DNA of 33,515 bases from Prauserella flavalba (GTDB lineage Bacteria; Actinomycetota; Actinomycetes; Mycobacteriales; Pseudonocardiaceae): contig NZ_MASU01000027.1 in assembly GCF_003202235.1 (NCBI RefSeq), positions 1-33,515 on the forward strand. The letters run 5' to 3'. A program made the translations under genes and the position numbers. The notes below the pieces were generated by a model. The model saw nothing but the letters and a program-made list of their open reading frames with translations. It did not search any database and was not told where the DNA came from. Positions 3,110 to 25,520 of the stretch are shown here, in pieces (positions within the stretch are counted from its first letter, which is position 1; every line of letters starts with the position of its first letter).

Positions 3110-3128
3110 CTACTATCTCGTCTAGTAG
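3110..3128. promoter_or_regulatory. BlaI-type operator (N7 class) before ctaD
   Basis: CTACTA-N7-TAGTAG is a perfect six-base inverted repeat 38 bases before the ctaD start codon. TACTA and TAGTA are seven bases apart, as at eight other sites in the window. It is followed by TTTGGTGTGG, similar to the CTTGGTCTGG that follows the sites at 13879 and 16882. Confidence 0.78.
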
Positions 3129-3165
3129 TTTGGTGTGGCTGTGGCGCCACGAATGGAGTTCGAGC

Positions 3166-4938
3166 ATGGTTGTGACACCGGCACCTGTTGCTCCGCGCCC
3201 GTCGCCGGTGCGCGAGGGGCCGAAGGGTTCATACCTGCTGCGGTTGTTCCGCACGACTGACCACAAGCAGATCGGCATCATGTACCTGGTCACGTCGTTC
3301 GCCTTCTTCATGGTCGGCGGGGCGATGGCCATGTTCATCCGCACCGAACTGGCTCGCCCGGGGCTGCAGTTCCTGTCGCAGGAGCAGTACAACCAGCTGT
3401 TCACCATGCACGGCACGATCATGCTGCTGCTCTACGCGACACCGGTGCTGTTCGGATTCGCGAACTTCATCCTGCCTCTGCAAATCGGCTCACCGGATGT
3501 CGCCTTCCCACGGCTGAACGCGCTCAGCTACTGGCTGTATCTCTTCGGCGGCCTGACCGCCGTCGGCGGGTTCCTCACCCCGGGCGGCGCGGCCGACTTC
3601 GGCTGGTTCGCCTACACGCCACTGTCGAACGCAATCTACTCCCCCGGCGTGGGCGCGGACTTGTGGATCACCGGCTTGCTGGTGTCCGGCCTCGGCACGA
3701 TTCTCGGCGCCGTCAACATGATCACCACCGTGGTATGCCTGCGCGCGCCAGGAATGACTATGTGGCGGATGCCCATCTTCACCTGGAACATCCTGGTCAC
3801 GAGCATCCTCATCCTCATCGCCTTCCCGATCCTCACCGCCGCCCTGTTCGGCCTGCTCGCCGACCGCCGCCTCGGCGCCCATGTGTTCGATCCGGCCAAC
3901 GGCGGCGTGATCCTGTGGCAGCACCTGTTCTGGTTCTTCGGCCACCCAGAGGTGTACATCGTCGCGCTGCCGTTCTTCGGCATCGTGTCCGAGATCTTCC
4001 CGGTGTTCAGCCGCAAACCGGTGTTCGGCTACAAGGGCCTCATCTGGGCCACGCTCGCCATCGCGGCGCTCTCGGTGTCCGTGTGGGCGCACCACATGTA
4101 CGCCACCGGCGCGGTGCTGCTGCCGTTCTTCTCGTTCATGACCTTCCTGATCGCCGTGCCGACCGGTGTGAAGTTCTTCAACTGGATCGGCACCATGTGG
4201 AAGGGACAGCTGACCTTCGAGACGCCGATGCTGTTCTCGGTCGGCTTCATCGTCACGTTCCTCTTCGGCGGTCTGTCGGGTGTGCTGCTCGCGGCCCCGG
4301 CGATCGACTTCCAGGTGTCCGATTCGTACTTTGTGGTGGCGCACTTCCATTACGTGCTCTACGGCACGATCGTGTTCGCCACGTTCGCCGGCATCTACTT
4401 CTGGTTCCCGAAGATCACCGGCCGGATGATGGACGAGCCGCTGGGCAAGCTCCACTTCTGGACCACGTTCATCGGCTTCCACGCGACGTTCCTCGTGCAG
4501 CACTGGCTGGGTGCCGAGGGCATGCCGCGCCGCTACGCCGACTACCTGGTGACCGATGGCTTCACCACGCTCAACACGATCTCCACGATCGGCGCCTACC
4601 TCCTCGGTGCCTCGACGCTGCCGTTCATCTGGAACGTCTTCAAGAGCTACCGCTACGGCGAGGTCGTGACCGTGGACGACCCGTGGGGCTACGGCAACTC
4701 GCTCGAGTGGGCCACCAGCTGCCCGCCGCCGAGGCACAACTTCACCGAGCTGCCCCGGATCCGTTCCGAGCGCCCGGCGTTCGAGCTGCACTACCCGCAC
4801 ATGATCGAACGCATGCGCGACGAGGGCCACATCACCTTTACCGGCAAAGCGCTGCCCCACCCCGAAGCAACACCGACACCCTCCGAGGTGCTCACCACAT
4901 CGGTCGATTCGGGCGGCACTACCGAACCCAGCAAGTAA
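3166..4938 (+). CDS. ctaD: Cytochrome c oxidase subunit I (aa3 type)
   Basis: This is the catalytic subunit of a haem-copper terminal oxidase, 590 aa, with about twelve membrane helices. Ligands are visible: H82 (TMHGTIM) and H395 (HFHY) for low-spin haem a, H393 for haem a3, and H260 (FGHPEVYI), H309 and H310 (WAHHMYATG) for CuB, with Y264 for the His-Tyr cross-link. This is a family A oxidase with a normal length. ATG at 3166 has GGAG seven bases upstream, and the open frame extends uselessly further. Subunits II and III, cytochrome c and assembly factors are absent, so it must pair with host subunits or replace the host CtaD. A BlaI-type dyad precedes it. The multicopper oxidase follows 53 bp downstream and is probably co-transcribed. 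Confidence 0.96.
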
Positions 4939-4991
4939 CCGTCAGGAACGATCATCGATACCGGCCCATCACCGATCCACATGAGGGACGC

Positions 4992-6545
4992 ATGACCGCA
5001 CAACATCGCCGCATCAGCCGCCGCGACTTCTTGATCATGGGGGCAGGCGTGACGACCGCCGCTGGCCTGGCCGCCTGCACGCCCGGAAACGCTGGCACGG
5101 CCGGCCCCACCAGGATCGGGCCGAAGTCACCGGCGGTCGCCGCAGCGGAACGCAAGCGCCGCGCCGCGAGCAGCGCGTCGACATCAGTGTCGCTCGAGGC
5201 TAGCGTTAACGATGTTGACCTCGGTGGCGTTGCGGTGCGGACTTGGACCTACGGTGGTGACCTGCCCGGCAAGGAGATCCGGATCAAACGCGGTGACATG
5301 CTGAGTGCTGAACTGTCGAACAAGCTGCCCCAGCCGACATCCATTCATTGGCACGGCCTGGCATTGCGCAACGACATGGACGGCGTGCCGGTGCTTACCC
5401 AGCCAGAGATCAAAGCTGGAACCACGTTCCGCTACGATTTCGCAGCACCGGACGCGGGAACCTACTGGTTCCATCCCCACGTCGGCACCCAGCTGGACCG
5501 CGGTCTGTACGCACCGCTCATCGTCGAAGACCCCACCGACGGCTCCGACTACGACACCGAACTGGTCATCGTGCTCGACGACTGGTTGGATGGCGTCGAC
5601 GGCCGAGATCCGGATGCTGTTCTGGCCGAGCTGAAGAAGAACGGCATGGTGATGGCCGAGCCCAGCGGCTCCTCCATGCCCGGAATGGACCACGGCAGCA
5701 TGCCCGGAATGGGCGGAATGCCGCAGTCTGAACTGCTCGGCGGTGACGCCGGCGACGTCACGTACCGGTACGTGCTCGCCAACGGCCGCATCTCCACCGC
5801 CCCGGCCACGTTCCGGTCCAGGCCGGGACAGCGCATCCGGCTGCGGCTGGTCAACGCCGCGGCAGATACCGCCTTCCGGGTGGGCGTTCCCGGCGTGCCC
5901 ATGACCGTCACGCACACTGACGGCTTCCCCGTGGTGCCTCAGCAGGCCGATGTCGCGCTACTCGGGATGGGTGAGCGTCTCGACGCGATCATCACCGTTC
6001 CAGACTCCCCCGTCCCGGTCCTAGCGTTGGCCGAAGGGCGCGACCTCTACGCGCAGGTCCTGATCCAGAGCGGCCGCTCAGGCGATCCGGCCACGGGCGC
6101 CGCCGCCGCTCCACAACTCGCAAGGCTGCCCGTACTGACGGCAAAGGACCTCAAGGCCACCGAAGAGGTCACCTTTCCGGAAAAGTCACCCGACGTGACC
6201 CACACGCTCGTGCTTGAAGGGCCTGGCGCCAAATACAGCTGGACCATCAACGGAAAGGCCTACAATCCGAACGACGGCCTGCCAATTCGATCTGGCCAGC
6301 GAGTACGCCTTCGATTCGAGAACAAATCGGAGATGTTCCACCCCATGCACCTGCACGGGCACACCTTTCAGGTGCTCGGCAAGAACGGGCGCGGAGCCCG
6401 CAAGGACACGGCGATCGTCCTGCCCGGAACCGCTCTCGACGTGGATTTCAACGCCGACAATCCCGGCCAGTGGCTGACCCACTGTCACAACCTCTATCAC
6501 GGCGAAGCCGGGATGATGACTGTAGTGTCCTATGTAGAGGAATAG
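4992..6545 (+). CDS. Tat-exported multicopper oxidase (laccase/CueO-like)
   Basis: This three-cupredoxin-domain multicopper oxidase has 517 aa. The N-terminus has a twin-arginine signal (SRRDFL, R10-R11) and a lipobox LAAC ending at C29, so it should be exported folded and possibly lipid-anchored. Copper ligands are all present: HWHG (H119, H121), HPH (H161, H163), HPMHLHGH (H450, H453, H455, H457) and HCHNLYH-GEAGM (H497, C498, H499, H503, M508). A Met/His-rich loop (MPGMDHGSMPGMGGM, from about residue 227) recalls the Cu(I)-oxidising CueO. ATG at 4992 follows AGGGA and sits 53 bp after ctaD. The likely role is oxidation of Cu(I) or phenolics outside the membrane. Control by the dyad before ctaD is inferred. 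Confidence 0.94.
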   Translation: MTAQHRRISRRDFLIMGAGVTTAAGLAACTPGNAGTAGPTRIGPKSPAVAAAERKRRAASSASTSVSLEASVNDVDLGGVAVRTWTYGGDLPGKEIRIKRGDMLSAELSNKLPQPTSIHWHGLALRNDMDGVPVLTQPEIKAGTTFRYDFAAPDAGTYWFHPHVGTQLDRGLYAPLIVEDPTDGSDYDTELVIVLDDWLDGVDGRDPDAVLAELKKNGMVMAEPSGSSMPGMDHGSMPGMGGMPQSELLGGDAGDVTYRYVLANGRISTAPATFRSRPGQRIRLRLVNAAADTAFRVGVPGVPMTVTHTDGFPVVPQQADVALLGMGERLDAIITVPDSPVPVLALAEGRDLYAQVLIQSGRSGDPATGAAAAPQLARLPVLTAKDLKATEEVTFPEKSPDVTHTLVLEGPGAKYSWTINGKAYNPNDGLPIRSGQRVRLRFENKSEMFHPMHLHGHTFQVLGKNGRGARKDTAIVLPGTALDVDFNADNPGQWLTHCHNLYHGEAGMMTVVSYVEE

Positions 6546-11809: not shown

Positions 11810-11826
11810 TACTACTACATCTAGTA
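11810..11826. promoter_or_regulatory. BlaI-type operator (N7 class) before the SLT hydrolase
   Basis: TACTA-N7-TAGTA, with exact half-sites, sits 115 bases before the start codon at 11942. It lies in a 333-bp non-coding gap (11609-11941) that shows nothing else recognisable. A shorter alternative pairing (TACTA at 11813) shares the same right half. Confidence 0.75.
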
Positions 11827-11941
11827 TCCAGTCGAACACCGCGCGGCAGCCCGGGCTCCAGGCGGGCGCTCCGCCCGTAGGGCCGCCGCAGGCAGTCTGC
11901 ACATGCCGGGTACGCCACCCGCGAGCGGTACGGGAGGGTCG

Positions 11942-13108
11942 ATGCGCGCGCGGCATGTCGTGCTGCTTGTCGGCCTGCTCGGCGCGGCTGTGATGATGGT
12001 CCCGATCGTCTTCGTCGCGGTGATCAGCGCTGTCCGATCGGCCGGCGAAGAACTGACACCCGTGCGGGCCGGGGTGGCAACGGCCAAGTTGCCGCCGTTG
12101 GCACAAAGCATGCTGCCGCTGGTGACCACACGGATCAGCGAAACGTGTCCTGAGCTGAGCGTGCTCCGAGTTCTGGCCGAGGTCCAAGCAGAGTCTGGGT
12201 GGGACCCGGCAGCGTGGAGCGAGGACGTCAACGGTGGCGCGGCGGGATTGCTTCAGATCAACCAAGCCAACTGGGTCTCCTTGGGTGGCCGGCCGTGGAC
12301 CAGCACGCCACCCCCTCCGACTGCCGATATCAGCGATCCCAGCACCCATTTGACACTCGGGATCGACTTTCTCTGCGGCAACCTGAGGGCGATCACGCCG
12401 CACCTGAAGGAGACCGGCAAGTCTGTCGACCCGATGGACGCCGTAAGCATCTGCCACATCGCGGGGTGCAGCCGGGTCGTCGGAAGTCGTACCGGGATAC
12501 CGCAGGCCGGTGAAGCCGGCTGTGGCGCGCAGTGTGCGTCGCTAGTCCGTCGGTACCTCGACAACATTCGCCGCTACGAACGCGACTGGTCGGCAACTTC
12601 AAGCGAACCTGGTCCCTCCGGGAAGCTGCCCTCGGGCATCGACATCGGTCAACTCACATCCGCGAACGCGTACACCGGTGGGCCAACAGGATGCACCGTT
12701 CCTGACCCCACGACAGACGGCTGTGTCACGGCCGCGACCGCGAATGGGATCGGCGAGGTGAAACGTGTTTTCGATTCAGAGGTCCGGTCGGCAGGGTGCT
12801 TTGCTCCTCGCCCGTGGAATCCGACCAGCGATCACCCCCAGGGCAAGGGCTGCGACATCTTCCCGGATCGGGCGGGCATCTTCCCCACCGGCGAATCGCT
12901 GAGAGCGGGCTGGCGGATGGCGGCCTGGCTCCGCGTCAATGCGGAAGCCCTGCGCGTCAAGTACGTCATCTGGCAGGGGCGATACTGGGATCCGACCACC
13001 AGCGATCAGGAGGGCTGGGGCGAGCGATACACCGGCGGTGGCGTCTATAACGTGGCCGATCCAACTGGCGGTCACTACGACCACATCCACGTCAGTTTCA
13101 GGGAATAG
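11942..13108 (+). CDS. Exported two-domain peptidoglycan hydrolase (SLT lytic transglycosylase + M15-like domain)
   Basis: The protein has 388 aa. A membrane or signal helix (HVVLLVGLLGAAVMMVPIVFVAV) at residues 5-27 is followed by a goose-lysozyme-type SLT domain (about 60-215) with catalytic E84 in QAESGWDP and with GAAGLLQIN. After a linker comes a C-terminal domain (about 235-388) with HPQGKGCD (H298, D305) and YDHIHVS (H381, H383), the zinc pattern of M15/VanY-like or ARB_07466-type domains. It could therefore cut both glycan and peptide. ATG 11942 follows GGGAGGG, and an in-frame upstream ATG (11903) lacks one. Similar enzymes serve conjugative machines, but here the gene stands behind a BlaI-type dyad. 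The next gene starts two bases after its stop. Confidence 0.86.
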   Translation: MRARHVVLLVGLLGAAVMMVPIVFVAVISAVRSAGEELTPVRAGVATAKLPPLAQSMLPLVTTRISETCPELSVLRVLAEVQAESGWDPAAWSEDVNGGAAGLLQINQANWVSLGGRPWTSTPPPPTADISDPSTHLTLGIDFLCGNLRAITPHLKETGKSVDPMDAVSICHIAGCSRVVGSRTGIPQAGEAGCGAQCASLVRRYLDNIRRYERDWSATSSEPGPSGKLPSGIDIGQLTSANAYTGGPTGCTVPDPTTDGCVTAATANGIGEVKRVFDSEVRSAGCFAPRPWNPTSDHPQGKGCDIFPDRAGIFPTGESLRAGWRMAAWLRVNAEALRVKYVIWQGRYWDPTTSDQEGWGERYTGGGVYNVADPTGGHYDHIHVSFRE

Positions 13109-13878: not shown

Positions 13879-13895
13879 TACTATATCACCTAGTA
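13879..13895. promoter_or_regulatory. BlaI-type operator (N7 class) before blaI2
   Basis: TACTA-N7-TAGTA with exact half-sites. Five bases beyond its right end the element CTTGGTCTGG begins. The dyad abuts the upstream side of a predicted blaI2 promoter, so it fits autoregulation. Confidence 0.8.
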
Positions 13896-13967: not shown

Positions 13968-14330
13968 ATGTTCGGGCTAGGCGATCTGGAAGGCGCTGTG
14001 ATGGACGTGCTCTGGCGCGCCCACGCGCCAGTGAAGGTTCGCGAGGTGCTCGAGACCCTCAGCGCAAACAGAAAACTCGCCTACACCACTGTCATGACGG
14101 TGCTGGACAATCTCCATCGTAAGGGATGGGCCGAGCGCGAGCGGGATGGCAAGGCCTACCGCTACCGCCCGGCGTTCACCCGTGAAGAGGCCGCAGTTCG
14201 AGCGTTGCGCGAGGCGCTGGATGCCTCTGGTAACCCACGAGCTGCGCTCCTACATTTCGCCAACTCAGCATCGGAGCGAGAGACGGAGATCCTGCGCGCC
14301 GCGCTGGCCGATAAGGCTAACCGTCAATGA
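13968..14330 (+). CDS. BlaI/MecI/CopY-family transcriptional repressor (BlaI2)
   Basis: This complete 120-aa winged-helix repressor has LGDLEGAVMDVLWRAHAPVKVREVLETL, the recognition part LAYTTVMTVLDNLHRKGWAER (about residues 37-57), AYRYRPA, and a C-terminal dimerisation segment with FANSASERETEIL. It has no metal-binding tail. It differs clearly from BlaI1 over the C-terminal half. ATG 13968 follows GGTGAGG. Its stop overlaps the M56-2 start (ATGA). The operator at 13879 has the same N7 spacing as the sites before ctaD, lnt and other genes, making BlaI2 the best candidate master repressor for those. Confidence 0.93.
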   Translation: MFGLGDLEGAVMDVLWRAHAPVKVREVLETLSANRKLAYTTVMTVLDNLHRKGWAERERDGKAYRYRPAFTREEAAVRALREALDASGNPRAALLHFANSASERETEILRAALADKANRQ

Positions 14331-15283
14331 TCGTGGCCGTATCGCTGCTCCTGGGAGCACTTGCCGCGGGGTGGTTCGTTCCGCGTCAACTGCTTCGCGC
14401 GGACCTCCGCCGCCGCGATCCCAGGCCCTTGATCGCCGCGTGGCTGCTGGCCATGTCCGGGGTGGCCCTCGCCGGGATCACGGGTGTCGTGCTGCTCCTG
14501 GCACCGGATCACGCAGCGCCCAGCCCGCTGACCTGGGCACTGAGCCAGTGCTGGACCGCGCTGCAGCACGGCTCACCACCCAAACTCGAAGAGATCATCG
14601 GCGTGCTCAGCGCCGCGATACTCGCGGGCTTGATCGCACGTTTCGCCATCGTCGCCGTCCGGGAGTTCCTCCAGTGGCGACGGGCGAGCCACGAGCGGCT
14701 GGCGGTGCTCCGCCTGGTTGCCCGCACCGACGACCACTCCCCGAAGACGCTGTGGCTGGCGCACGATCGCCCGTTGGCGTTCAGTCTTGGCAACCGCCCC
14801 GGCGTCATAGTCGCCACGGAAGGACTGCGGCGACATCTTTCGCCTGAAGGCGTCGCGGCCGTGCTGGCGCACGAACGGGCTCACCTTCGCGGCCGCCACC
14901 ATCTGCTGATCCTGATCGCAGGCATCCTGCGTCGGACCATGCCGTTCGTGCCGCTGTTCCAGCAGGCCGACACTGCCCTGCGTGAGCTTGTGGAGCTGGC
15001 CGCCGACGTCTCGGCGGTCCGCACCTGCGGAGCGTCGGCCGTCCGCTCGGCCTTGCTGGGCGTCGCGGGTCCGGGAACACCCGAAGTCGCGCTGGCGATG
15101 GCACGGGACGCTGTGACGTTGCGACTCGCCCGCTTGCAGCACGCCGCCCAGCCCGCTGGTGGCTTTCGCGCAGCCCTCTCCTGCGGCATCGCTGGAATGG
15201 CGGCCACCGCATTGCCATTTCTCACCAGCGCTGCGCTGCTTCTCGGCGTCACCATAGTTGCTTGCCCTGCGAATGGCTGGTGA
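14327..15283 (+). CDS. M56-family membrane metallopeptidase (BlaR-like, no sensor domain)
   Basis: This intact 318-aa membrane protease has helices near residues 2-16, 36-60, 85-107 and 285-312. The zinc site H182-E183-x-x-H186 (HERAH) and E223 in ELAAD fit gluzincin M56. The length is about half that of BlaR1 (around 585-600 aa): there is no extracellular penicillin-binding sensor domain, so the signal cannot be the classical beta-lactam acylation. Overlap with blaI2 (ATGA) predicts coupled expression and BlaI2 as partner. The last 35 bases overlap the end of lnt on the other strand. Confidence 0.92.
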   Translation: MIVAVSLLLGALAAGWFVPRQLLRADLRRRDPRPLIAAWLLAMSGVALAGITGVVLLLAPDHAAPSPLTWALSQCWTALQHGSPPKLEEIIGVLSAAILAGLIARFAIVAVREFLQWRRASHERLAVLRLVARTDDHSPKTLWLAHDRPLAFSLGNRPGVIVATEGLRRHLSPEGVAAVLAHERAHLRGRHHLLILIAGILRRTMPFVPLFQQADTALRELVELAADVSAVRTCGASAVRSALLGVAGPGTPEVALAMARDAVTLRLARLQHAAQPAGGFRAALSCGIAGMAATALPFLTSAALLLGVTIVACPANGW

Positions 15284-16856
15284 CCGGCTGGCGCCGCAAC
15301 GCCGCCGCCATCAGTGCCACGAGCGCGAGGCTCACGATCGCCCATTCGGTAGTGCTGCCGAGTCTGGTCGCCACCGTGGTAGTCGACCGCAGCGGTACCT
15401 GTTCGACCATCGACTCCGAGGTGAACTGTCCGGTGCGGCGGACTACGCTGCCGTCGGGTCGTACGATCGCGCTGACTCCGCTGGTCGACGCGACGATGAC
15501 GGCACGGCCGTGCTCCACCGCTCGTAGCCTCGCCATCGCCAGCTGCTGAAAGGTCATCTCGGTGCGCCCGAACCACGCGTTGTTCGTGGGCACGACCAAC
15601 AGCTGAGCTCCCGCCCGGGTCGCATCGGTGAGCACGTAGTCGTAGGCAACCTCGTAACAGATGGCGAACCCCGCTCGAGCCGATCCCACGTCGAGGACGC
15701 CTGGTCGATCACCGGGCACCATGTCGCCCGCCGGATCGTCGCTGAACGGGGTCACCGCGGCGGCGACAGCCCGGAGCGGGACGAACTCCGAGAACGGCAC
15801 CAACTGCTGCTTGGCGTACTCTTTGGTAGCGCCACGTCCAGGGCTCCACAGGATTATCCGATTACTGACACGACCGTCCACGCTGTAGGCGGTGCCACCC
15901 ACCGCAACCGGCACACCAAGCTCACGTGCGATGCGGTCAAGGTCCGGGTCGCCGCGTCCGGGCGCAAACACGTTCGACGACTCGGGCAGGATCACGAGGT
16001 CGGGTGAAGGACCTCGGCCGGCACGGACATCATCGACAAGTTGGTTAGCCTGAGCGATATGATTGGCCCGCACCGTCGCACTCCGGCCCAGGAGCGCGAG
16101 GCCGCTGTCGGGCGCGTTTCCCTGAACCACGGCGACATTCATGGTCCCGTCCTCCGCCCCGGTCTCGATCAACGACGCCGCCAGCCAACCGGCCAGCACC
16201 GGTAACACACCGATCAGGCCTGGCGCAATCGACCGGCGCGGTGTTTGCCGGATTCGCAGCGCCACGACGCCGAGTCCGCAGCCAGCGAGCGCCACGGCGA
16301 AGCCCACCAGAACCGCTCCACCCACTACCGCGAGTGGCAGGAAGATCCCCTCAGGCTGAGTGAATGCGACGCGCCCCCACGGGAATCCGCCGTACGGAAC
16401 TCGTGAGCGCACCGCCTCCGCAGCCACGACGACCGCGGCCATCCACACAGGGGCCATGGGCAGTCGGCTGACCTTCGCCATGCCTGCTCCCATCAGGCCG
16501 AAGAACAACGCTTCCAACCCCACCAGGCCCAACCATGGCCAGACGCCGAAGGCAACCCCCAAGAAATCATCCAGCCACTGCAGTAGCGGCAAAAGGTACG
16601 TGACGCCGAACGCCACACCAGCGCCGAATGCATGCCGCACGGGGCGACCGGAGACGGCCAGCACCAACAACGCGAACGCAACCGGCGCGAGCCACCACAG
16701 CGGTCGGGGTGGTGAGGCGACAAAGAGGACAATGCCGCCGCCTGCAGCCGCACCAAGGCGAAGCCAAGGTGCAGTCCCCACCACGCGAGCGGAGAAGCGC
16801 CACCGCGATGTGCGTGCGGGCCGACTCACTCCCTGCGAATCAACCTCCACAGCCAC
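15249..16856 (-). CDS. lnt: Apolipoprotein N-acyltransferase
   Basis: Lnt transfers the third acyl chain to the N-terminal cysteine of lipoproteins at the outer face of the membrane. The 535-aa protein has a multi-helix N-terminal half (about residues 30-225) and a nitrilase-fold domain (about 235-490). The triad is present as E292 (LPESS), K349 (KQQLVPFSEF) and C400 (ICYEVAY). A further C-terminal helix follows. GTG 16856 is the furthest start and has only a weak ribosome site. A BlaI-type dyad ends 26 bases upstream. Lnt in mobile DNA is uncommon, since hosts usually have their own. Two lipobox proteins in the window (multicopper oxidase, ABC binding protein) could be substrates. Confidence 0.93.
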   Translation of the reverse strand: MAVEVDSQGVSRPARTSRWRFSARVVGTAPWLRLGAAAGGGIVLFVASPPRPLWWLAPVAFALLVLAVSGRPVRHAFGAGVAFGVTYLLPLLQWLDDFLGVAFGVWPWLGLVGLEALFFGLMGAGMAKVSRLPMAPVWMAAVVVAAEAVRSRVPYGGFPWGRVAFTQPEGIFLPLAVVGGAVLVGFAVALAGCGLGVVALRIRQTPRRSIAPGLIGVLPVLAGWLAASLIETGAEDGTMNVAVVQGNAPDSGLALLGRSATVRANHIAQANQLVDDVRAGRGPSPDLVILPESSNVFAPGRGDPDLDRIARELGVPVAVGGTAYSVDGRVSNRIILWSPGRGATKEYAKQQLVPFSEFVPLRAVAAAVTPFSDDPAGDMVPGDRPGVLDVGSARAGFAICYEVAYDYVLTDATRAGAQLLVVPTNNAWFGRTEMTFQQLAMARLRAVEHGRAVIVASTSGVSAIVRPDGSVVRRTGQFTSESMVEQVPLRSTTTVATRLGSTTEWAIVSLALVALMAAALRRQPVTSHSQGKQLW

Positions 16857-16881: not shown

Positions 16882-16898
16882 CTACTATTACAGATAGT
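16882..16898. promoter_or_regulatory. BlaI-type operator (N7 class) before lnt
   Basis: TACTA-N7-TAGTA with exact half-sites, 26 bases before the lnt start on the minus strand. It is followed on the plus strand by ACTTGGTCTGG, identical over 11 bases to the flank of the blaI2 operator, although the gene here runs the other way. Confidence 0.8.
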
Positions 16899-17024
16899 AA
16901 CTTGGTCTGGACACTAGCCGGCCGAGTAACCCTCTCCTCGATGCTGCCGGGTGATCCCGGCCCGCCCGAGCACATGCCCGGGAGCTTGGCAGCGCGTCGA
17001 CTGATCCGCTCGACAGCTACTGGG

Positions 17025-18227
17025 TCACCCCATCGATGTTGCCCTTCTCACGGCATCGCACAGGGACCTGATCTCTCGTTGGGTGTTGTAGTAGTGCACC
17101 GAGGCGCGTACCAGCTCATCGAGTCCTCTGTTCTCCATGTCCACCCTCGTCGAGGGAGCGCGCGACACGCTGACATTGATCCCTCGGGTGGCGAGGCGTT
17201 GCTTGACATCGGCCGGGGCGACGCCGTCCACGGTGAAGGCCACGATCCCGCAACGTTCGGCACCCACGTCGCGGAGCTTTACTCCGGGCAACTCCTCCAG
17301 CCGTGCACGCAGTTCGTCGGCCAACATGTACACCCGCTCGCGGATGCGGTCCAAGCCCCAGCCAAGGGCGTAATCAATGGCTGTTCCCAGCCCGATCTTG
17401 GCCGCATAGTTGCACTCCCACGACTCGAACCGGCGGGCGTCCGGCCGCATGCGGTACTCATCTCGGGCTGTCCAGGTGGCCGCATGCAGGTCCAGCATCG
17501 GTGGCGAGAGTTGATCGAGCAGGTCCTGGCGGACGTAGAGTAAGCCGGTGCCTCGTGGGCCGCGAAGGTACTTGCGTCCCGTCAGTGATAGCAGGTCGCA
17601 GCCGATCTCACCGACATCGAGCGGCATCTGCCCTGCGGACTGACACGCATCAAGCAGATAGAGCACACCGGCCTCCCGCGCGACTTTGCCGACTTCGGCG
17701 GCTGGATTGACAAGGCCGCAGTTGGTCGGCACGTGGGTCAACGAGATCAGCCGTACCCGCTCGTCAATCAGCTCACGCAACCGTGGCACGGAGATCTGCC
17801 CGGATTCGTCGTTGGCGACCACCTCGACCTTGAGATCGTAGCGGGCGGCAAGCTGGAGGTATGCGATGAAGTTGCTGCCGTACTCGGCCTCGCTGGTCAG
17901 GATCCGATCGCCGGCCCTGAACGGAATCGAGTAGAACGCCATATCCCAGGCACGAGTGGCGCTGTCGAGCACAGCGATCTCGCTGGGCTCGCAGCCGAGG
18001 AGACATGCCGCAGAGGCATAGGCCGCATCGATGGTCGCGGCGGCCTCCGCGGCCGCCTCGTAGCCCCCGATACGCGCCTCCAGCCTCAAATGCGAGACGG
18101 TACTGTCCAGCACAGACGCGGGCATCAGTGAGGCACCCGCGTTGTTGAAGTGCACGACGTTGCTGCAACCTGGTGTCTCTCGCCGCGCAGTCTCCACATC
18201 AAAGGCATCGATCGCCAGCGCCGTCAT
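17025..18227 (-). CDS. Class V aminotransferase-fold PLP enzyme (cysteine desulfurase/selenocysteine lyase-like)
   Basis: This 400-aa fold-type I PLP enzyme has H165 (LTHVPTN), D193 and Q196 (LLDACQSAGQ) for the cofactor ring and Schiff-base lysine K219 (SLTGRKYLRGPRGTG). The family includes cysteine desulfurases, selenocysteine lyases and epimerases. The exact reaction is not readable, but lack of a clear mobile catalytic Cys loop argues against an IscS-type desulfurase. Its start overlaps the ABC ATPase stop (ATGA), so it is the last gene of the transporter operon. It probably acts on the imported amino acid, perhaps a sulfur amino acid. That link is inference. Confidence 0.85.
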   Translation of the reverse strand: MTALAIDAFDVETARRETPGCSNVVHFNNAGASLMPASVLDSTVSHLRLEARIGGYEAAAEAAATIDAAYASAACLLGCEPSEIAVLDSATRAWDMAFYSIPFRAGDRILTSEAEYGSNFIAYLQLAARYDLKVEVVANDESGQISVPRLRELIDERVRLISLTHVPTNCGLVNPAAEVGKVAREAGVLYLLDACQSAGQMPLDVGEIGCDLLSLTGRKYLRGPRGTGLLYVRQDLLDQLSPPMLDLHAATWTARDEYRMRPDARRFESWECNYAAKIGLGTAIDYALGWGLDRIRERVYMLADELRARLEELPGVKLRDVGAERCGIVAFTVDGVAPADVKQRLATRGINVSVSRAPSTRVDMENRGLDELVRASVHYYNTQREIRSLCDAVRRATSMG

Positions 18228-19036
18228 ACCGCCTCCTCCCCCACACGCGGTGCCGGAGCGTCGACCACCGCGCCGGAGTGATCGACGAGCCTGAGGAACG
18301 TGCGCACCCGCTCCTTCGACGGACGCGTAAAGAACGCTTCGGCCGTTGCGTCCTCGACGACCACTCCACCGTCCATGAATACGATCCGGTCAGCTACCTC
18401 CCGCGCGAAGTGTGTCTCGTGGGTAACGATCACCATTGTCATGCCATCGCCAGCAAGCTCCTGGATAACCTCCAGCACCTCGGCGTGCAACTCTGGGTCG
18501 AGGGCGGAAGTCGGTTCGTCGAAGAGCACGACCTCCGGCTCCATAGCCAGCGCACGCGCGATCGCCACCCGCTGCTTCTGCCCCCCGGACAGTCGAGACG
18601 GATGGACATCGCGCTTGTCGGCCAGTCCAACTCGGTCCAACAGGCGCTCCCCGAGTGCGATCGCTTCGGCGGTCGGTAGCTTCCGCACCTGTCGGGGGCC
18701 TTCGATCACGTTGCCCAGTGCGGTCATATGGGGGAAGAGGTTGAACTGCTGGAAAACCATGCCGGTTTGCTGCCGTGCTCGCTGCATCAGCCGTGCCCGG
18801 CCGCGTCCGTCACGGCTAGCGCCGCAGGAGAACGCGCAGTCACAGATGCGCACGTGTCCGGAGTCGGGTTCCTCGAGCAGGTTCATGCATCGCACGAGAG
18901 TGGTCTTTCCAGAACCGGATGGTCCCATGAGTACGACGACCTCACCTCGCTCGACCGAGAGATCGACGCCGCGCAGGACCTCAAGTTCGCCGAAGGCTTT
19001 GTGGATGCCGGTGAGTTCGATCGGGGGCTTTGTCAT
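18224..19036 (-). CDS. Polar amino-acid ABC transporter ATP-binding protein
   Basis: This 270-aa ATPase of the GlnQ/HisP type has Walker A GPSGSGKTT (residues 38-46), Q-loop FQQFNLF, signature LSGGQKQR, Walker B VVLFDEPTSALD and switch His in VTHE. An unusual Cys-containing insert (ICDCAFSCGASRDG, about 62-75) lies between Walker A and the Q-loop. ATG 19036 is chosen because it overlaps the permease stop (ATGA) and starts the family-typical MTKPPIEL. The open frame upstream is a shadow of the permease gene. It energises uptake with the permease and binding protein. Confidence 0.93.
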   Translation of the reverse strand: MTKPPIELTGIHKAFGELEVLRGVDLSVERGEVVVLMGPSGSGKTTLVRCMNLLEEPDSGHVRICDCAFSCGASRDGRGRARLMQRARQQTGMVFQQFNLFPHMTALGNVIEGPRQVRKLPTAEAIALGERLLDRVGLADKRDVHPSRLSGGQKQRVAIARALAMEPEVVLFDEPTSALDPELHAEVLEVIQELAGDGMTMVIVTHETHFAREVADRIVFMDGGVVVEDATAEAFFTRPSKERVRTFLRLVDHSGAVVDAPAPRVGEEAV

Positions 19037-19680
19037 GCGTACGCCTTTCCCAGTCGCCGTTCGAGCATCCCCTGCCCGACCGACAACAGCGTGTTGATAA
19101 GCCAGTACATGGCACCGATCATCAGGAACGCCTCCATGTACCGGAAGTTCGCGTTGCCGATGCTCTCCGCGACGCGAGTCAGTTCGACAACGGTAACCAC
19201 TGACGCTAGCGAGGTGTCCTTCATCAGCGCGATGAACCGGCCGCCAACGGCCGGGGTGGCGATCCTGATCGCCTGCGGGAAGATGATCCTGCGGAACGTG
19301 CGCCAGTACGGCATACCGATGGACGAGGCGGCTTCCCACTGCCCTTTGTCCACACCGAGAATGCCGCCTCTGAAGTTCTCACTGAGGTAGGCTCCGGCAA
19401 ACAGACTCAACGCAAGGATCGCCGACGGAATTGGTTCCAGCTGTACGCCAAGCTGCGGCAGACCAAAGTAGATGATCATGATCTGAATGAGCAGCGGGGT
19501 TCCCCGAAAGATCGAGACATACATGATCGCAGAACCCCTGAGGACGCGGAATGCGGAAATACGCGCCAGGGCGACCAAGGCGCCGAGAGCAGAACCCAGT
19601 ACAAAGGACACTACGCCGAGCAGCAGGGTGATACCCAGGCCCCGGAGGAGCATGGGGAACGAGTCAACCAGCATGTCCAT
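19033..19680 (-). CDS. Polar amino-acid ABC transporter permease
   Basis: This 215-aa HisM/GlnP-type permease has about five helices, the FRGTPLLIQ signature near residues 58-66 and the EAA coupling loop EAASSIGMPYWRTFRRIIFPQAIR (about 116-139). It begins nine bases after the binding-protein stop and overlaps the ATPase start. A single permease gene implies a homodimeric channel. Confidence 0.93.
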   Translation of the reverse strand: MDMLVDSFPMLLRGLGITLLLGVVSFVLGSALGALVALARISAFRVLRGSAIMYVSIFRGTPLLIQIMIIYFGLPQLGVQLEPIPSAILALSLFAGAYLSENFRGGILGVDKGQWEAASSIGMPYWRTFRRIIFPQAIRIATPAVGGRFIALMKDTSLASVVTVVELTRVAESIGNANFRYMEAFLMIGAMYWLINTLLSVGQGMLERRLGKAYA

Positions 19681-19689
19681 CGATTGCTC

Positions 19690-20532
19690 CTAGCTCTGTT
19701 CCGGCTGCAGTTCCTTGAGCTCTTCCACCATGTCCAGGCCACCCAGCCACTTGCGGGAGATCTTTGTCAGGGACCCGTCCTCAATCATTTCGGCAATTGC
19801 TTTGTCGATCTCCTTCTTGAACTCGGCCGAGCCCTTCCGGAAGGACATGGCGTTGACCTCGCTCTCCAGCAGGGGACCGACTGGCTTGACGTGGAGGCCG
19901 TTCTGCTTAGCCAGGTAGCTACCCTGGAACCGGGAAACCAGCATGGCGTCTGCGTTGCCGCGCCCCAGGTCGGTCAGGCCCAGCGTTGCATTCTGGTACG
20001 TCTTGACCTGCGCATCAGGGACTTCCTCGCTGGCGAACTTCTCTTGTGTGGTTCCGGCGGACACGGCGATGACCTTTCCTCGTAGATCTTCGAGCGAGTC
20101 GATTGAGTTCGTGGACGACGCGGTGAAGATCGAGACACCGTTGACCTGGTAGGGAGTCGAAAAGTCGACCTGCTGTTTCCGTTCGTCGGTCACCGTCTGG
20201 CCGGAGATGACGATGTCAAACCGCCCCGCCCGAACGCCCTCGATGAAGCTCTGGAAGTTCGACGCGACGAACTCGACGTTGTCAACACCGATCCGCCGGG
20301 CCACCTCACGTGCCACGTCGACGTCGTAACCGACTGGCTGCCCCGAGGCGTCGAGGAAGTTCCACGGTGGATTCGCCTGCGTAAGCGCCACGCGCAAGGT
20401 GCCGTTGTCGCGCACCTGCTGCAGGACGTCACCGGAACTCCCGCTGGAGCAAGCCACGAGCACTCCACTGACAACGACGGCAACTAGCGAGAACGCAACC
20501 TTGAACGGCCGCCGGATATGTGACATTCCCAT
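19690..20532 (-). CDS. Family 3 amino-acid-binding lipoprotein of the ABC transporter
   Basis: This 280-aa binding protein has a signal peptide ending in lipobox LVAC with C28 as lipidated residue. The mature part shows NGTLRVALTQANPPWNFLD, GYDVDVAREVARRIG and FDIVISGQTVTDERKQQVDFSTPY, typical of the SBP_bac_3 family that binds glutamine, cystine or similar amino acids. The ligand cannot be fixed. ATG 20532 follows GGAGG at four bases, and ATG 20526 is an alternative. It heads the four-gene operon. As a lipoprotein it is a possible client of the Lnt encoded nearby. Confidence 0.93.
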   Translation of the reverse strand: MGMSHIRRPFKVAFSLVAVVVSGVLVACSSGSSGDVLQQVRDNGTLRVALTQANPPWNFLDASGQPVGYDVDVAREVARRIGVDNVEFVASNFQSFIEGVRAGRFDIVISGQTVTDERKQQVDFSTPYQVNGVSIFTASSTNSIDSLEDLRGKVIAVSAGTTQEKFASEEVPDAQVKTYQNATLGLTDLGRGNADAMLVSRFQGSYLAKQNGLHVKPVGPLLESEVNAMSFRKGSAEFKKEIDKAIAEMIEDGSLTKISRKWLGGLDMVEELKELQPEQS

Positions 20533-20819: not shown

Positions 20820-20836
20820 TACTATCTGATTTAGTA
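20820..20836. promoter_or_regulatory. BlaI-type operator (N7 class), orphan position
   Basis: TACTA-N7-TAGTA with exact half-sites. It lies 288 bases upstream of the ABC operon start and about 85 bases upstream of the operon's predicted -35 box, too far for simple blocking. On the plus strand an ORF of 40 codons begins at 20861, without a ribosome site. The target is uncertain. Confidence 0.65.
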
Positions 20837-21505: not shown

Positions 21506-22015
21506 TCACTGATGGGGTTGCTGTAACACACGCGCATCAGCCGTGCAGCCTGCGGGCGTGCAGGCCCGCCGACGCCAGCGCACCAGTACAGCCGCACCGA
21601 GCGCGGCGACGGACATACCGGCCAAGGCAGGCTGGATCGGCGCCCACACGCCCAACGCACCGGACACGCCGAGCATGCCCAAGACGATCTTGTTACAAAG
21701 AGGGCAGCCGACTGCGAAGGCCGACAGCAGCGAGGAGCCGAGCACACCGCTTCGCCCACGCTCATCGATCGCCTCGCGGACGATCGCGAACCACAGGCCG
21801 GTCAGTACGGCCGTCAGAGTCAGCACCGGATACTCCCACCAGCGGACGGGAGTCATCCGGGTGAACCACAGCGTGTCGATGACATCAGTGGGCACGCCGA
21901 CAACTGCCGCGCTGAGCGTAGCCGCGAGAATCCCTCGCCGCCATCGCCAGGCTCGGACCGGCGCGGTGGCCGGCTCGGCGGCGGCTTGCTGGTTCAGGAA
22001 GTTCGCTCGAGTCAT
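21506..22015 (-). CDS. Conserved-looking integral membrane protein with GCPLCNK motif
   Basis: This 169-aa membrane protein has helices around residues 28-45, 63-80, 92-112 and 125-145 and a Cys pair in the motif GCPLCNK (about residue 104) followed by GVSGALG and PIQPAL. Such a motif occurs in uncharacterised actinobacterial membrane proteins. The Cys pair could bind metal or be redox-active, but no function is established. A C-terminal tail carries two more cysteines (ACTPAGC). Its ATG overlaps the stop of the 47-aa ORF (ATGA), so both are controlled together, probably through the dyad at 22172. Confidence 0.7.
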   Translation of the reverse strand: MTRANFLNQQAAAEPATAPVRAWRWRRGILAATLSAAVVGVPTDVIDTLWFTRMTPVRWWEYPVLTLTAVLTGLWFAIVREAIDERGRSGVLGSSLLSAFAVGCPLCNKIVLGMLGVSGALGVWAPIQPALAGMSVAALGAAVLVRWRRRACTPAGCTADARVLQQPHQ

Positions 22016-22170: not shown

Positions 22171-22392
22171 CTACGATCCATCATAGTACCTGGTCGGGGA
22201 CTGCCTGGCGACGTCGGACTCCGGCAACCGCCCACCAATCAGCGCCGCGCCGACGGTGATGAGCCCCGCGCCCGCGAGATACTCACCGGCGGACCGTTCA
22301 CCAGCACCTGCGGGCACGTAAACGGCGCGCCGAGCGACAATCTGGGACGCCTCATTCTGCTGCACCGGCAGTCTCAGCGCGGCGTCGACCAC
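22171..22392 (-). CDS. Small putative membrane ORF (73 aa) behind a CsoR-like dyad
   Basis: This GTG-initiated frame reads VVDAALRLPVQQNEAS, then GAGERSAGEYLAGAGLITVGAALIGG (one hydrophobic segment), and ends RYYDGS. The frame stays open upstream with WCDCPVVAWF, so the true start may be missing or the gene may be a fragment. No ribosome site is evident. A CsoR-like dyad ends 53 bases upstream, a normal promoter distance, which is the main reason to list it. Family unknown. Confidence 0.35.
   Translation of the reverse strand: MVDAALRLPVQQNEASQIVARRAVYVPAGAGERSAGEYLAGAGLITVGAALIGGRLPESDVARQSPTRYYDGS
22172..22188. promoter_or_regulatory. BlaI-type operator (N7 class), one mismatch
   Basis: TACGA-N7-TAGTA has one mismatch to the exact repeat. 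It lies just before the 47-aa ORF and its membrane-protein partner on the minus strand. The plus-strand flank CCTGGTCGGGG resembles the CTTGGTCTGG flank of other sites. Confidence 0.62.
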
Positions 22393-22530: not shown

Positions 22531-23376
22531 CTAGCCGATGTTCGCTCCGCCTTCTTGCAGCCAGGCGAGCGGGTCGATCTTCCGACTGGACGGGTCCCAG
22601 ACCTCGAAGTGCAGGTGCGGACCGGTGGAGTTGCCCGTGTTCCCGACCTCGGCGATCACCTCACCGGCCTCGACTTGCTGCCCTACACTTACCGCGTAGG
22701 AGTTGATGTGGCCGTAGACAGTGATGGTGCCGTCCTCGTGCTGGATGCGCACCCACAGCCCGAAACCGCTGGCGGGACCGGCATCGAGCACTACCCCCCG
22801 CATCGGCGCGACGATCGGCGTGCCGGTCACGTTCGCGATGTCCAGGCCGTAGTGGGTGGTGCCCCAACGCGGCCCGTAGTTTGACGTAATCGTGCCTTGA
22901 ACTGGCGCGACTACCCGATGCCGCGCCTCCTCCTCCGCAGCCTCCCGCGCGCGCCGTTGCCGTTCCGCCTCCTCGCGGGCGATGCGGTCCTTTCTGGCCT
23001 GCTCCGCCCTGTCCAGCAGCCTGACCTCGTCACGAGCAGACCGACTGGGAGCAGAAAGTACCAGTGGCCCGGAGCCTGCCGTGGGGCCCCCGATGCCTGT
23101 GGCGGTGGCGGCTGTGCTGACCTCGCTGTTGACGTCAGCGAGAAGGTTGACGCGAGGTTCGTGCTGGGTTGGCGGCGACCCGGCCAGGAGCTGGAGCGCC
23201 GCACTTCCAGCCCCAGCGGCGACACTCAGGAGGACCGTTGCCGCCCGCAGGTTCGGGGTGGGCCCGCGGCGGGTCGTCGCCGCTGAGCGCCGCGTTGGCA
23301 CGGTGCGGCTGCCTGGAGGGACGGGTATCAAGTTGTGCTCATGGCCGGCTGGCCGGGGCATGCGATGTCGGGGCAC
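22531..23376 (-). CDS. M23-family (LytM) peptidoglycan endopeptidase
   Basis: This 281-aa zinc endopeptidase cuts peptidoglycan cross-bridges or stems. A basic N-terminus and a hydrophobic anchor (ATVLLSVAAGAGSAALQLLAG, about residues 45-66) lead to a linker, a charged coiled-coil (RLLDRAEQARKDRIAREEAERQRRAREAAEEEARH, about 118-153) and a C-terminal M23 domain with zinc ligands in HYGLDIA and HLHFEVW. Catalytic His and the NTGNSTGPHLH signature are intact, so it should be active and not a degenerate activator like EnvC. GTG 23376 is the furthest start and a later one is possible. A BlaI-type dyad ends 65 bases upstream. Confidence 0.92.
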   Translation of the reverse strand: MPRHRMPRPAGHEHNLIPVPPGSRTVPTRRSAATTRRGPTPNLRAATVLLSVAAGAGSAALQLLAGSPPTQHEPRVNLLADVNSEVSTAATATGIGGPTAGSGPLVLSAPSRSARDEVRLLDRAEQARKDRIAREEAERQRRAREAAEEEARHRVVAPVQGTITSNYGPRWGTTHYGLDIANVTGTPIVAPMRGVVLDAGPASGFGLWVRIQHEDGTITVYGHINSYAVSVGQQVEAGEVIAEVGNTGNSTGPHLHFEVWDPSSRKIDPLAWLQEGGANIG

Positions 23377-23440: not shown

Positions 23441-23457
23441 CACTATCCTGCATAGTA
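23441..23457. promoter_or_regulatory. BlaI-type operator (N7 class) before the M23 peptidase
   Basis: CACTA-N7-TAGTA has one mismatch in the left half. The inner T and A after and before the half-sites match the TACTAT-N5-ATAGTA consensus. It lies 65 bases before the M23 start. Confidence 0.65.
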
Positions 23458-24456: not shown

Positions 24457-25323
24457 TCACACGAGAGGACGCCGAGCGGCCACTAGATAGCCGGTTCCCA
24501 TCCACCGGCGGGTTCCACGACTCGCCGTCCTCTCCGGATGGTCGCGCCATTGCCGTGCCCACCGCCGGGCCAGCCTGTCGAGTGGTGGCACGAGGGGCGT
24601 GAGGTCGTAGTAGACGACGTCCTCCGGCTGCATTCCAACCTGATGCAGCATTCGCCGCAACGTTTTCGCACCGACCGCGCGAATGCCGGAAACTCGCGCG
24701 CCGTGGCGGTTCGCAGCCGGTACACCCAGTCGCCGCTCAAGGCGACCGAGAAGCCGGAGTGCCGGCCAGTAGACACCCCATTCGAAGAGCCGATACGGGC
24801 TGGCCGGATTAAGCATGGTAACCAGCATGAGTCCACCCGGGCGGACGACGCGGGACAGCTCTCGCAAAGCGCGCGGCAGGTCCGTGTACTCCAGCACGCC
24901 CATGGCGACGACCACGTCGAAGCTTGCGTCGCCGAAAGGCATGTCCTCGATAGACGCCACCACCAGTTCGACATTGGTTGCATCAAACGTCCTGTCGACG
25001 ACGGCCTCGATCATGGCGGGGGACCTGTCGCACGCCGTAATGTGGAACTTCTCTGCGCGCGTGTCGAGCAGTCGGCGTACCAGCATGCCCGGACCACATC
25101 CGGCATCGAGGAGGTCACCGCCAGGGCAGTCTTTCAGGAGTTCCTGCACGACGTGCAGCCGAGAGTGGAAGTACCGCGCAGTTGGCCCCCAGCCGTCGTG
25201 CGCGGCGACGTATCCCGCGGCCTCGGCCGCATCCTGGTATTGACTTGCGACTGCGGCCGAGCGTGCCGCGCGGTTGGCCAAACCGAGGCGTCTCCCGCCG
25301 GGGATGGGCACACCTGCCTCCAT
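24457..25323 (-). CDS. Class I SAM-dependent methyltransferase (methyltransferase 2)
   Basis: This 288-aa methyltransferase has motif I LLDAGCGPGMLVRRLL (about residues 70-85), acidic loop TACDRSP, VVASIEDMPFGDASFDVVVAMGVLEY and LRELSRVVRPGGLMLVTMLNP. The C-terminal extension (about 190-288) is longer than in methyltransferase 1 and is rich in Arg. The pattern is UbiE/BioC/ChlM-like, and the substrate (lipid, quinone or other) is unknown. ATG 25323 begins the family-like part and lies 80 bases after the BlaI-type dyad at 25404-25420. The open frame upstream of it crosses that operator and is not coding. Confidence 0.85.
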   Translation of the reverse strand: MEAGVPIPGGRRLGLANRAARSAAVASQYQDAAEAAGYVAAHDGWGPTARYFHSRLHVVQELLKDCPGGDLLDAGCGPGMLVRRLLDTRAEKFHITACDRSPAMIEAVVDRTFDATNVELVVASIEDMPFGDASFDVVVAMGVLEYTDLPRALRELSRVVRPGGLMLVTMLNPASPYRLFEWGVYWPALRLLGRLERRLGVPAANRHGARVSGIRAVGAKTLRRMLHQVGMQPEDVVYYDLTPLVPPLDRLARRWARQWRDHPERTASRGTRRWMGTGYLVAARRPLV

Positions 25324-25403
25324 CGTGATCCGCGTAGCACGTCCGCCGCGCCGCCTCGAACAGGCCCGGTGCCTGCACGGTCGATGCTCTAAGCCGCCGT
25401 AAC

Positions 25404-25420
25404 TACTATTACCAATAGGA
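25404..25420. promoter_or_regulatory. BlaI-type operator (N7 class) before methyltransferase 2
   Basis: TACTA-N7-TAGGA has one mismatch in the right half and the consensus inner T and A. It stands 80 bases before the methyltransferase 2 start on the minus strand and about 75 bases from the separate dyad serving the divergent 93-aa gene. Confidence 0.62.
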
Positions 25421-25495
25421 CTAGTCGGGCGAGCGCACTGGCCCGTTACAGCCGTCTCGCAACCGTCTACGCCTCCACACGCCTTGGATTCCCGC

Positions 25496-25520
25496 GACAT
25501 ACTATTAGTGATAGTATGTC
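25496..25520. promoter_or_regulatory. BlaI-type operator (N7 class), strongest palindrome, before the 93-aa gene
   Basis: GACATACTAT-N5-ATAGTATGTC is a perfect ten-base inverted repeat containing TACTA-N7-TAGTA. It is the most symmetrical site in the window and sits 33 bases before the GTG of the 93-aa membrane protein gene. Confidence 0.82.

Follow-up and report, generated by a model that had tools for sequence, protein, structure and literature searches.

The textbook role of BlaI is that of a beta-lactamase switch, and staphylococcal BlaI and MecI act on one or two operators of the TACA/TGTA type. The present analysis concerns a putative BlaI-type regulon in a 33,515-nucleotide stretch of DNA from Prauserella flavalba, a GC-rich actinobacterium (assembly GCF_003202235.1), which is one entire contig (NZ_MASU01000027.1) and is referred to as the window or C27. 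The locus resembles the staphylococcal BlaI/BlaR1 and MecI/MecR1 systems in that a Penicillinase_R repressor is followed by an M56-type membrane protease. Unlike BlaR1 and MecR1, however, the M56 proteins found here are without a penicillin-binding sensor; furthermore, no PF13354 beta-lactamase lies beside the sites, the predicted operator is a 17-bp dyad with a seven-base spacer (TACTA-N7-TAGTA), and about 20 such operators are present.

Likeness extends to the BlaI of Mycobacterium tuberculosis (Rv1846c), which has a similar helix (LAYTTVM) and a regulon reaching beyond beta-lactamase into energy genes: its overexpression in M. smegmatis is reported to lower the transcripts of ftsQ and of Rv1303 (ATP synthase operon), with binding to both promoters (PMC12565901), and its regulon is stated to include atpH and sigC (PMC8265638). 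That regulon is chromosomal, whereas the lipoprotein, cytochrome c and mobile content of the one described here is new. The lit2 gene of Listeria plasmids is controlled by CopY, a relative of BlaI. As reported, lit2 encodes a copper-inducible lipoprotein transacylase and thereby duplicates lipoprotein acylation on a mobile, copper-linked element; it is, however, a single gene within a copper-resistance operon, compared with a kit behind some 20 sites here (PMC7387801). Similarly, the CpxAR/NlpE system of Escherichia coli is reported to sense failed lipoprotein maturation under copper (PMC6593411), but as a two-component system acting on host genes instead of mobile second copies. The literature search returned no description of the regulon, the operator of the 2009 study of the M. 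tuberculosis BlaI regulon standing outside the comparison; as far as that search went, BlaI/M56 pairs and the protein families are known, while the regulon and its cargo are new. Judged from sequence, the regulon is real, widely conserved, mobile, of BlaI type and larger than first noted.

Predicted operator sites in the window and the genome

The initial annotation had listed nine TACTA-N7-TAGTA dyads of identical spacing, five of them exact. All nine were found, with coordinates within 4 bases; six proved to be exact and three carry one mismatch (Table 1), and the set grew to at least 21 sites on two contigs, C27 and C26. The spacing is specific: a scan of spacers 0-20 in the window gave six exact pairs at spacer 7 and at most one at every other spacer. 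With up to two mismatches, 15 matches occur in the window, whereas 100 dinucleotide shuffles average 0.65. Sixty window shuffles contained no exact match and never more than one match with at most one mismatch per shuffle, and 60 shuffles of C26 gave no exact match either. An origin of the motif as a chance product or dispersed repeat is rejected on the basis of the shuffles, the spacer controls and the position of the sites.

The initial annotation had proposed a genome-wide and shuffled count as its own check, and both agree with it. The genome (8,093,541 bases in 39 contigs) holds 15 exact sites (six on C27, six on the 32,430-base C26, two on C12 and one on C1) and 16 one-mismatch sites (six on C26, three on C27 and seven elsewhere). 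C26 and C27 together account for 12 of the 15 exact sites and 21 of the 31 with at most one mismatch, at densities about 487 and 256 times those of the rest of the genome. The remaining three exact sites, in ~8.03 Mb, each lie less than 2 kb from a blaI gene: the C12 blaI sits between both C12 sites, and the C1 blaI is ~1 kb from the C1 site. One of the seven one-mismatch sites elsewhere, which were annotated in part, looks real (C33:26418), being 43 bp before a BNR-repeat gene, a family that makes up 4 of 85 in the target tally.

Five Penicillinase_R genes, all over the PF03965 cut-off, are present in the genome (two on C27 and one each on C26, C12 and C1). With five paralogues, three of them on C26/C27, BlaI2 therefore cannot be singled out as the binder, as the initial annotation had done. 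All five proteins share the helix LAYTTVMTVL, and plasmid copies retain YTT(V/I); among solved structures, BlaI2 best matches M. tuberculosis BlaI (2g9w, E 4e-22), followed by 1p6r (5e-5) and 1okr (1e-4). A further dyad, CTCCTAC-N9-GTAGGAG (window 2983-3005), lies immediately upstream of blaI1 and may be the operator of the more divergent BlaI1 itself.

Eight of the nine window sites precede a plausible gene, as had been annotated, the exception being 20820, for which the ABC transporter/aminotransferase operon is a possible target. By eye, the 169-aa membrane protein behind operator 6 has a paralogue encoded on C12, the gene for which likewise carries an exact site. C26 carries a blaI-M56 pair, a CopM/DUF305 protein, a second COX1, TlpA-type redoxins, two CcdA-type proteins, CcmB, CcmE, CcmH, a CcmF-type protein, a class E sortase, CopC/CopD, an Lgt-like protein, M23, a rhodanese-like protein, an NlpC/P60 (RipC-like) protein, a major facilitator superfamily (MFS) protein and a cysteine-synthase-like protein, several of these names (CcmF, RipC, rhodanese, cysteine synthase, MFS) being below curated NCBIfam cut-offs or assigned by eye. 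Its sites lie close upstream of ctaD, TlpA, a divergent CcdA/ABC pair, the sortase, CcdA, a small-gene pair, the Lgt-like gene, M23, NlpC/P60 and a DUF418/acyltransferase-type gene; inspection of the genes adjoining C26:23492 and C26:28318 gave no clear target.

Table 1. Putative operators, genes and insertion elements of the window
Feature	Position	Strand	Remarks
Operator 1	3111..3127		exact, TACTATCTCGTCTAGTA; between divergent blaI1 and ctaD
Operator 2	11810..11826		exact; before SLT-domain protein gene (11903)
Operator 3	13879..13895		exact; before blaI2-M56 (blaI2 start 13968)
Operator 4	16883..16899		exact; 27 bp before lnt (start 16856)
Operator 5	20820..20836		exact; 288 bp upstream of cystine-type ABC operon (start 20532)
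Operator 6	22172..22188		one mismatch; 157 bp before 169-aa membrane protein (start 22015)
Operator 7	23441..23457		one mismatch; 65 bp before M23 peptidase (start 23376)
Operator 8	25404..25420		one mismatch; before methyltransferase (internal start taken, 25323)
Operator 9	25500..25516		exact; within palindrome of 9-bp arms, 38 bp before 93-aa protein (25554)
blaI1, Penicillinase_R repressor	2622..2969	-	start inferred, GTG 2969 or ATG 2963; open frame extends upstream
M56 membrane metalloprotease 1	1733..2698	-	open frame, start not settled
ctaD, aa3 oxidase subunit I (COX1)	3166..4938	+	ATG at 3166
Multicopper oxidase	4965..6545	+	Pfam over cut-off; best NCBIfam match CopA-type, below cut-off
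SLT-domain envelope protein	11903..13108	+	weak match, over cut-off
blaI2, Penicillinase_R repressor	13968..14330	+	without cysteine
M56-type membrane metalloprotease 2, 318 aa	14327..15283	+	M48 over, M56 just under Pfam cut-off; no sensor domain
lnt, apolipoprotein N-acyltransferase	15249..16856	-	behind operator 4
ABC transporter and class-V aminotransferase	17025..20532	-	best NCBIfam match cystine type, sub-cut-off
169-aa membrane protein	21506..22015	-	weakly MerT-like, below cut-off
M23 peptidase	22531..23376	-	probable peptidoglycan hydrolase
Class I methyltransferase	24457..25323	-	start taken at 25323
93-aa membrane protein	25554..25835	+	no family
Copper block	26198..30039	-	HMA P-type ATPase, 317-aa protein, 68-aa CopZ-like protein (by eye), CsoR-family repressor
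IS481-type insertion element, left copy	1..1077	+	contig end
IS481-type insertion element, right copy	32439..33515	-	100% inverted repeat of left copy

Recurrence across actinobacteria and transfer of the regulon DNA

The regulon is not peculiar to this genome and recurs on actinobacterial plasmids and chromosomes. The exact motif was found in 60 of 150 genomes of the window's family and in 141 of 298 genomes of its order, and PF03965 was present in 58 of the 60 motif-bearing family genomes against 54 of the 90 motif-free ones (p 8e-8), as well as in all 34 with two or more sites. Eighty BlaI loci, the best from one actinobacterial scan (1.44 Mb in total), include Lentzea, Saccharothrix, Amycolatopsis, Tsukamurella, Mycolicibacterium, Nocardia, Gordonia, Nocardioides, Kribbella and Streptomyces. 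A de novo dyad search of these loci returned exact TACTA-N7-TAGTA 85 times against 0.06 expected from word counts; apart from runs of N, which were disregarded, only its inner form ACTAA-N5, seen 10 times, had a higher ratio, and the same arms at spacers 10, 14 and 15 occurred 4, 13 and 1 times. Exact sites fall in 39 of the 80 loci. Nineteen 20-kb control regions, drawn from the window's family only and hence narrower than the loci, which span more families, held no exact and a single one-mismatch site. The motif is tied to blaI in its own genome, in the family and in the 80 loci, which upholds the BlaI-type operator regulon first proposed, and the sites are very probably BlaI operators. Four loci with no exact site (L093, L105, L112 and L121) have a TACTATCTACGTACGTA-like sequence or its reverse complement before blaI, which suggests a second operator class.

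Annotated plasmid stretches of Rhodococcus, Gordonia and Mycolicibacterium/Mycobacterium hold overlapping parts of one package: ctaD, BlaI-M56, a copper ATPase, a CtaG-type assembly protein, M23, L,D-transpeptidase, Lgt or LspA, Lnt, ResB/CcsB/CcdA/TlpA, a thioredoxin-domain protein and VKOR. Plasmid pROB01 of Rhodococcus opacus B4 is one carrier of such a cluster, with ctaD and a thioredoxin-domain gene among those behind sites. Two Pseudonocardia stretches have a cytochrome package without BlaI and without sites, and two more ctaD stretches without BlaI also have none. At least nine of ten arm bases lie within 150 bp upstream of 11 of the 12 ctaD genes with BlaI in the fetched stretch (the exception being M. 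poriferae) and of a thirteenth (L175, R. pseudokoreensis) with no BlaI in its 31 kb, as against 0 of 4 ctaD genes in the stretches without BlaI; at these sites the arms are conserved, whereas the spacer sequence varies. Mycobacterial plasmids show one to three sites of at most one mismatch per 31-42 kb stretch, and the de novo search on them places TACT-N9-AGTA, which has the same core, first at word length 4 and not among the leaders at length 5.

Mobility, also claimed in the initial annotation, is supported by comparison with a second genome of the genus, from another species, where C26 recurs at 99.98% over 32.4 kb and C27 at 99.99-100%. The 16-kb region around the C1 blaI is 93.2-94.3% identical between the two, and the excess of C26 and C27 over this sampled chromosomal region therefore points to recent transfer of both contigs. 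In that genome C26 has its counterpart in a contig of 105,665 bases, at the far end of which conjugation proteins of the PrgI, TraG and TrwB/TraD types are encoded. The opening 70 bases of this contig are identical to the outer end of the insertion sequence (IS) copies flanking C27; C26 thus abuts a copy of the same element, and the two contigs are probably neighbours in the genome. C27, a possible composite transposon, ends in 1077-bp identical inverted IS copies, but contig ends fall in repeats, and target duplications are not visible.

Position of the sites and the genes behind them

Gene bodies, as given by a heuristic gene caller with 120 nt trimmed from the start of each gene, make up 76% of the sequence but contain only 22 of the 156 distinct exact sites (p 4e-60). 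Sites lie a median of 37 bp from the chosen start, a value that is indicative only because starts were sought no further than 220 bp downstream. First-gene tallies rest on 180 of 227 unique candidates, 47 having been dropped by hand as antisense, overlapping or short, with no written rule. Among the families listed, the 180 genes comprise BlaI 11, DsbA-like thioredoxin 10, COX1 8, NlpC/P60 7, LGT, LNT and multicopper oxidase 6 each, L,D-transpeptidase 5, DUF305 4 and M23 at least 4. These target families are absent from the 24 families that occur at least twice in 119 random genes (of 279 called genes, 120 were drawn at random and one, open at a region end, was omitted). Furthermore, of the 169 target candidates other than BlaI, 117 are predicted to have a hydrophobic segment, compared with 42 of 119 genes (p 1e-8) and 103 of 299 genes (p 5e-13) in two controls, so that the pooled exported fraction, like several of the clustered-locus tests, is significant.

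For the latter, loci were classed as holding at least three BlaI sites (n=11), one or two (n=28) or none (n=41), with the control regions (n=19) as a fourth class. In this order, Lnt occurs in 5/11, 0/28, 0/41 and 0/19; L,D-transpeptidase in 6/11, 3/28, 5/41 and 0/19; M23 in 6/11, 4/28, 4/41 and 0/19; multicopper oxidase in 6/11, 7/28, 5/41 and 0/19; TlpA in 5/11, 4/28, 1/41 and 0/19; CcdA in 4/11, 3/28, 1/41 and 0/19; and NlpC in 4/11, 8/28, 6/41 and 1/19.

Several of the encoded functions are redundant in the genome, other contigs carrying COX1 (C2, C6 and C15), Lnt (two on C5) and Lgt (C9), none of them close to a site with one mismatch or fewer; C26 alone encodes CcmE. The island Lnt retains the Glu, Lys and Cys common to three plasmid copies and one C5 copy (the L189 row, a wrong-strand frame, being left out of the comparison), which we take to be the catalytic residues. 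As a separate observation, the DUF6119 gene (window 6742-8614) appears to be split, two overlapping frames matching the first and last part of the family.

Mechanism, trigger and competing explanations

For binding, repression, proteolytic release and the trigger, we infer the following course. At rest, dimers of the BlaI-family repressors, encoded in three blaI-M56 pairs on C26/C27 and two pairs elsewhere, would occupy TACTA-N7-TAGTA over the promoters and keep the genes behind some 20 sites off. Failure of an envelope function would then lead the short M56 membrane protease to inactivate BlaI. The released set would include lipoprotein and wall enzymes (Lnt, an Lgt-like enzyme, M23, NlpC/P60 and SLT-type proteins and a class E sortase) together with redox and respiratory ones (TlpA- and CcdA-type thiol proteins, Ccm-type maturation, two COX1 subunits and a multicopper oxidase). 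Trigger aside, there is a good probability that a BlaI/M56 regulon of this kind switches on a mobile second set of extracytoplasmic enzymes.

Release of BlaI by M56 is itself probable. The protease domain of BlaR1 is reported to have a role in BlaI derepression (PMC9834060), and an M56-type frame directly follows blaI in 62 of the 80 loci, at 294-342 aa with one of 237 aa at a contig end; the search demanded H[ED]xxH and 200-460 aa, so that presence of the motif is by construction. With no length cap, an HExxH frame of at least 400 aa follows blaI in 0 of the 80 loci, and nine annotated plasmid M56 genes encode 305-319 aa; these short lengths leave no room for a penicillin-binding sensor. The alignment comprised 58 of the 62 proteins and that of the window, whose AlphaFold model (pLDDT 89) gives BlaR1 as its first Foldseek match (probability 1.00, TM 0.45), the E value of 0.036 making the shared fold suggestive only. 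No M56 relative was found by tblastn in 9 of the 80 loci. An HExxH frame is absent within 400 bp downstream of blaI in 18 loci (eight from Nocardia, eight from Streptomycetaceae and two from Amycolatopsis: L080, L083, L093, L109, L113, L119, L121, L123, L124, L129, L135, L137, L139, L141, L143, L144, L147 and L149).

Copper or thiol damage appears to be the likeliest trigger, to judge from the copper genes, the CsoR-type operators and the published targets of copper. The window contains a CsoR-family/ATPase block, and multicopper oxidases and DUF305 lie near dense clusters, the latter in 4 of 11 loci with three or more sites against 6 of 41 without a site and 0 of 19 controls. CsoR-type dyads (TACCC-N5-GGGTA), a form with which the Streptomyces CsoR consensus ATATACCCCTNAGGGGTATAT agrees as reported (PMC3902906), number 34 in the 80 BlaI loci, whereas 380 kb of control sequence has none. 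Among loci with at least three, one or two and no BlaI sites, 6 of 11, 7 of 28 and 8 of 41 contain them, so that they mark BlaI loci in general. One-mismatch forms are present in the window, including one at 30132 beside csoR; two more (30695-30709 and 30745-30759) stand before an MFS gene (30759). Through reaction with cysteine thiols, copper reportedly inhibits the Lgt step, L,D-transpeptidases and the formation of disulfides (PMC6593411). The kit is read as a replacement set because many of its members act on or by way of an exposed cysteine, which copper attacks outside the membrane; it would replace envelope functions hit by copper or thiol damage, copper export remaining under a separate CsoR-family regulator. 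As the export genes of the window are without a BlaI site, BlaI/M56 would answer the damage and not copper itself. This copper/thiol replacement reading is offered tentatively. Equally tentative is its extension, by which actinobacteria share a mobile regulon for a conditional second set of extracytoplasmic cysteine-dependent machinery (lipoprotein lipidation, disulfide and cytochrome-c maturation, L,D-transpeptidase, NlpC/P60 and sortase) plus an alternative oxidase, with a sensor-less M56 protease detecting poisoning, most likely by copper, and removing BlaI. If true, resistance would be achieved by replacing the target set instead of exporting the poison.

Several results weigh against parts of this account. 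The copper ATPase and CsoR of the window are without a BlaI-type site at up to two mismatches, and the trigger therefore need not be copper; exact TACCC-N5-GGGTA is absent from the window and from C26, and 10 CsoR-type dyads lie in 8 of the 41 BlaI loci that lack the BlaI motif. In the same class order as above, neither CopA (2/11, 14/28, 10/41 and 0/19) nor CopC/D (0/11, 1/28, 1/41 and 0/19) is enriched in dense clusters. COX1, M23 and the methyltransferases misfit the catalytic-cysteine theme, and the Lgt-like protein of C26 is divergent, being over the Pfam LGT cut-off and below the NCBIfam lgt cut-offs. When single families are tested against an upper bound of one in 119 random genes, none reaches significance (p 0.05-0.41). 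The reversed-pattern control is less clear than the shuffles, with 173 matches against 31 for the motif at up to one mismatch in its own genome (7 against 15 exact) and an excess over the motif in many relatives; it was set aside because its letters, ATGAT/ATCAT, were judged common in such DNA, and the chance estimate relies on shuffles and spacer controls in its place. An exact site is lacking within ~10 kb in 41 of the 80 BlaI loci, some BlaI proteins therefore using other operators, and selection of loci for BlaI or motif biases the counts of motif presence, leaving site positions unbiased. Finally, sites 20820 (TACTATCTGATTTAGTA) and C26:23492 (locus L017:3492; TACTATCTGAGTTAGTA) have no convincing adjacent target gene. 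These two sites are nearly identical in sequence and could perhaps serve untranslated RNAs.

Two other explanations are unlikely, and about equally so. According to the first, a classical cell-wall regulon, M56 senses beta-lactams or peptidoglycan damage, the kit repairs the wall and the oxidase genes are added for energy. M23, NlpC/P60 and L,D-transpeptidase among the targets, the ATP synthase genes of the M. tuberculosis BlaI regulon as a parallel and the resemblance of the recognition helix to 2g9w fit such a regulon, but Lgt, Lnt, Ccm and multicopper oxidase misfit wall repair, and the M56 proteins are too short for the sensor. The beta-lactamase absence stated in the initial annotation holds for PF13354 on C26/C27 (class-A type; other beta-lactamase classes were not searched), and the four PF13354 matches of the genome are not near any site of at most one mismatch; it does not hold for two mycobacterial plasmid clusters (L030:34752-35513 and L179:28572-29333), which carry a beta-lactamase-fold PF13354 protein with no such site beside it. 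According to the second, the regulon responds when cytochrome c or the terminal oxidase fails (copper starvation, cyanide or sulfide), and an alternative oxidase, together with its own maturation system, is provided by the island. A respiratory role of this kind would account for the two COX1 genes, the CcmB, CcmE and CcmH of C26 (with CcmE nowhere else in the genome), the CtaG-type, ResB and CcsB genes of plasmids and the retention of a site by ctaD in 12 of 13 clusters; lipoprotein and wall enzymes are, however, about equally frequent among targets, and neither oxidase subunit II nor quinol-cytochrome c reductase was recognised on C26/C27 by eye, no profile search having been made.

That the dyads serve a different regulator of the mobile element, with blaI genes as mere neighbours, is highly improbable: BlaI binding is a prediction and the sites are concentrated on mobile DNA, but isolated exact sites elsewhere also adjoin blaI, the motif leads a blaI-centred dyad search over 80 loci from many genera, and every one of the 34 family genomes with two or more sites has blaI. 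CopY-type copper repressors have a C-terminal cysteine metal site, and a BlaI that is itself a CopY-like copper sensor, suggested by the nearby copper genes and CsoR-type operators, is the least credible alternative, as direct copper sensing is rejected on the lack of any cysteine in BlaI2 or the C26 BlaI and as an M56-type gene directly follows blaI in most loci.

Returning to the preferred account of a BlaI/M56 regulon for a mobile second set, a repressor of the BlaI fold, together with a reduced BlaR-like protease, appears to control an extensive and movable programme of envelope biogenesis and respiration across actinobacteria. The regulon provides a concrete operator and target list for asking what sensor-less M56 proteases sense, and it suggests that mobile DNA can bring a replacement set for metal-damaged envelope enzymes.

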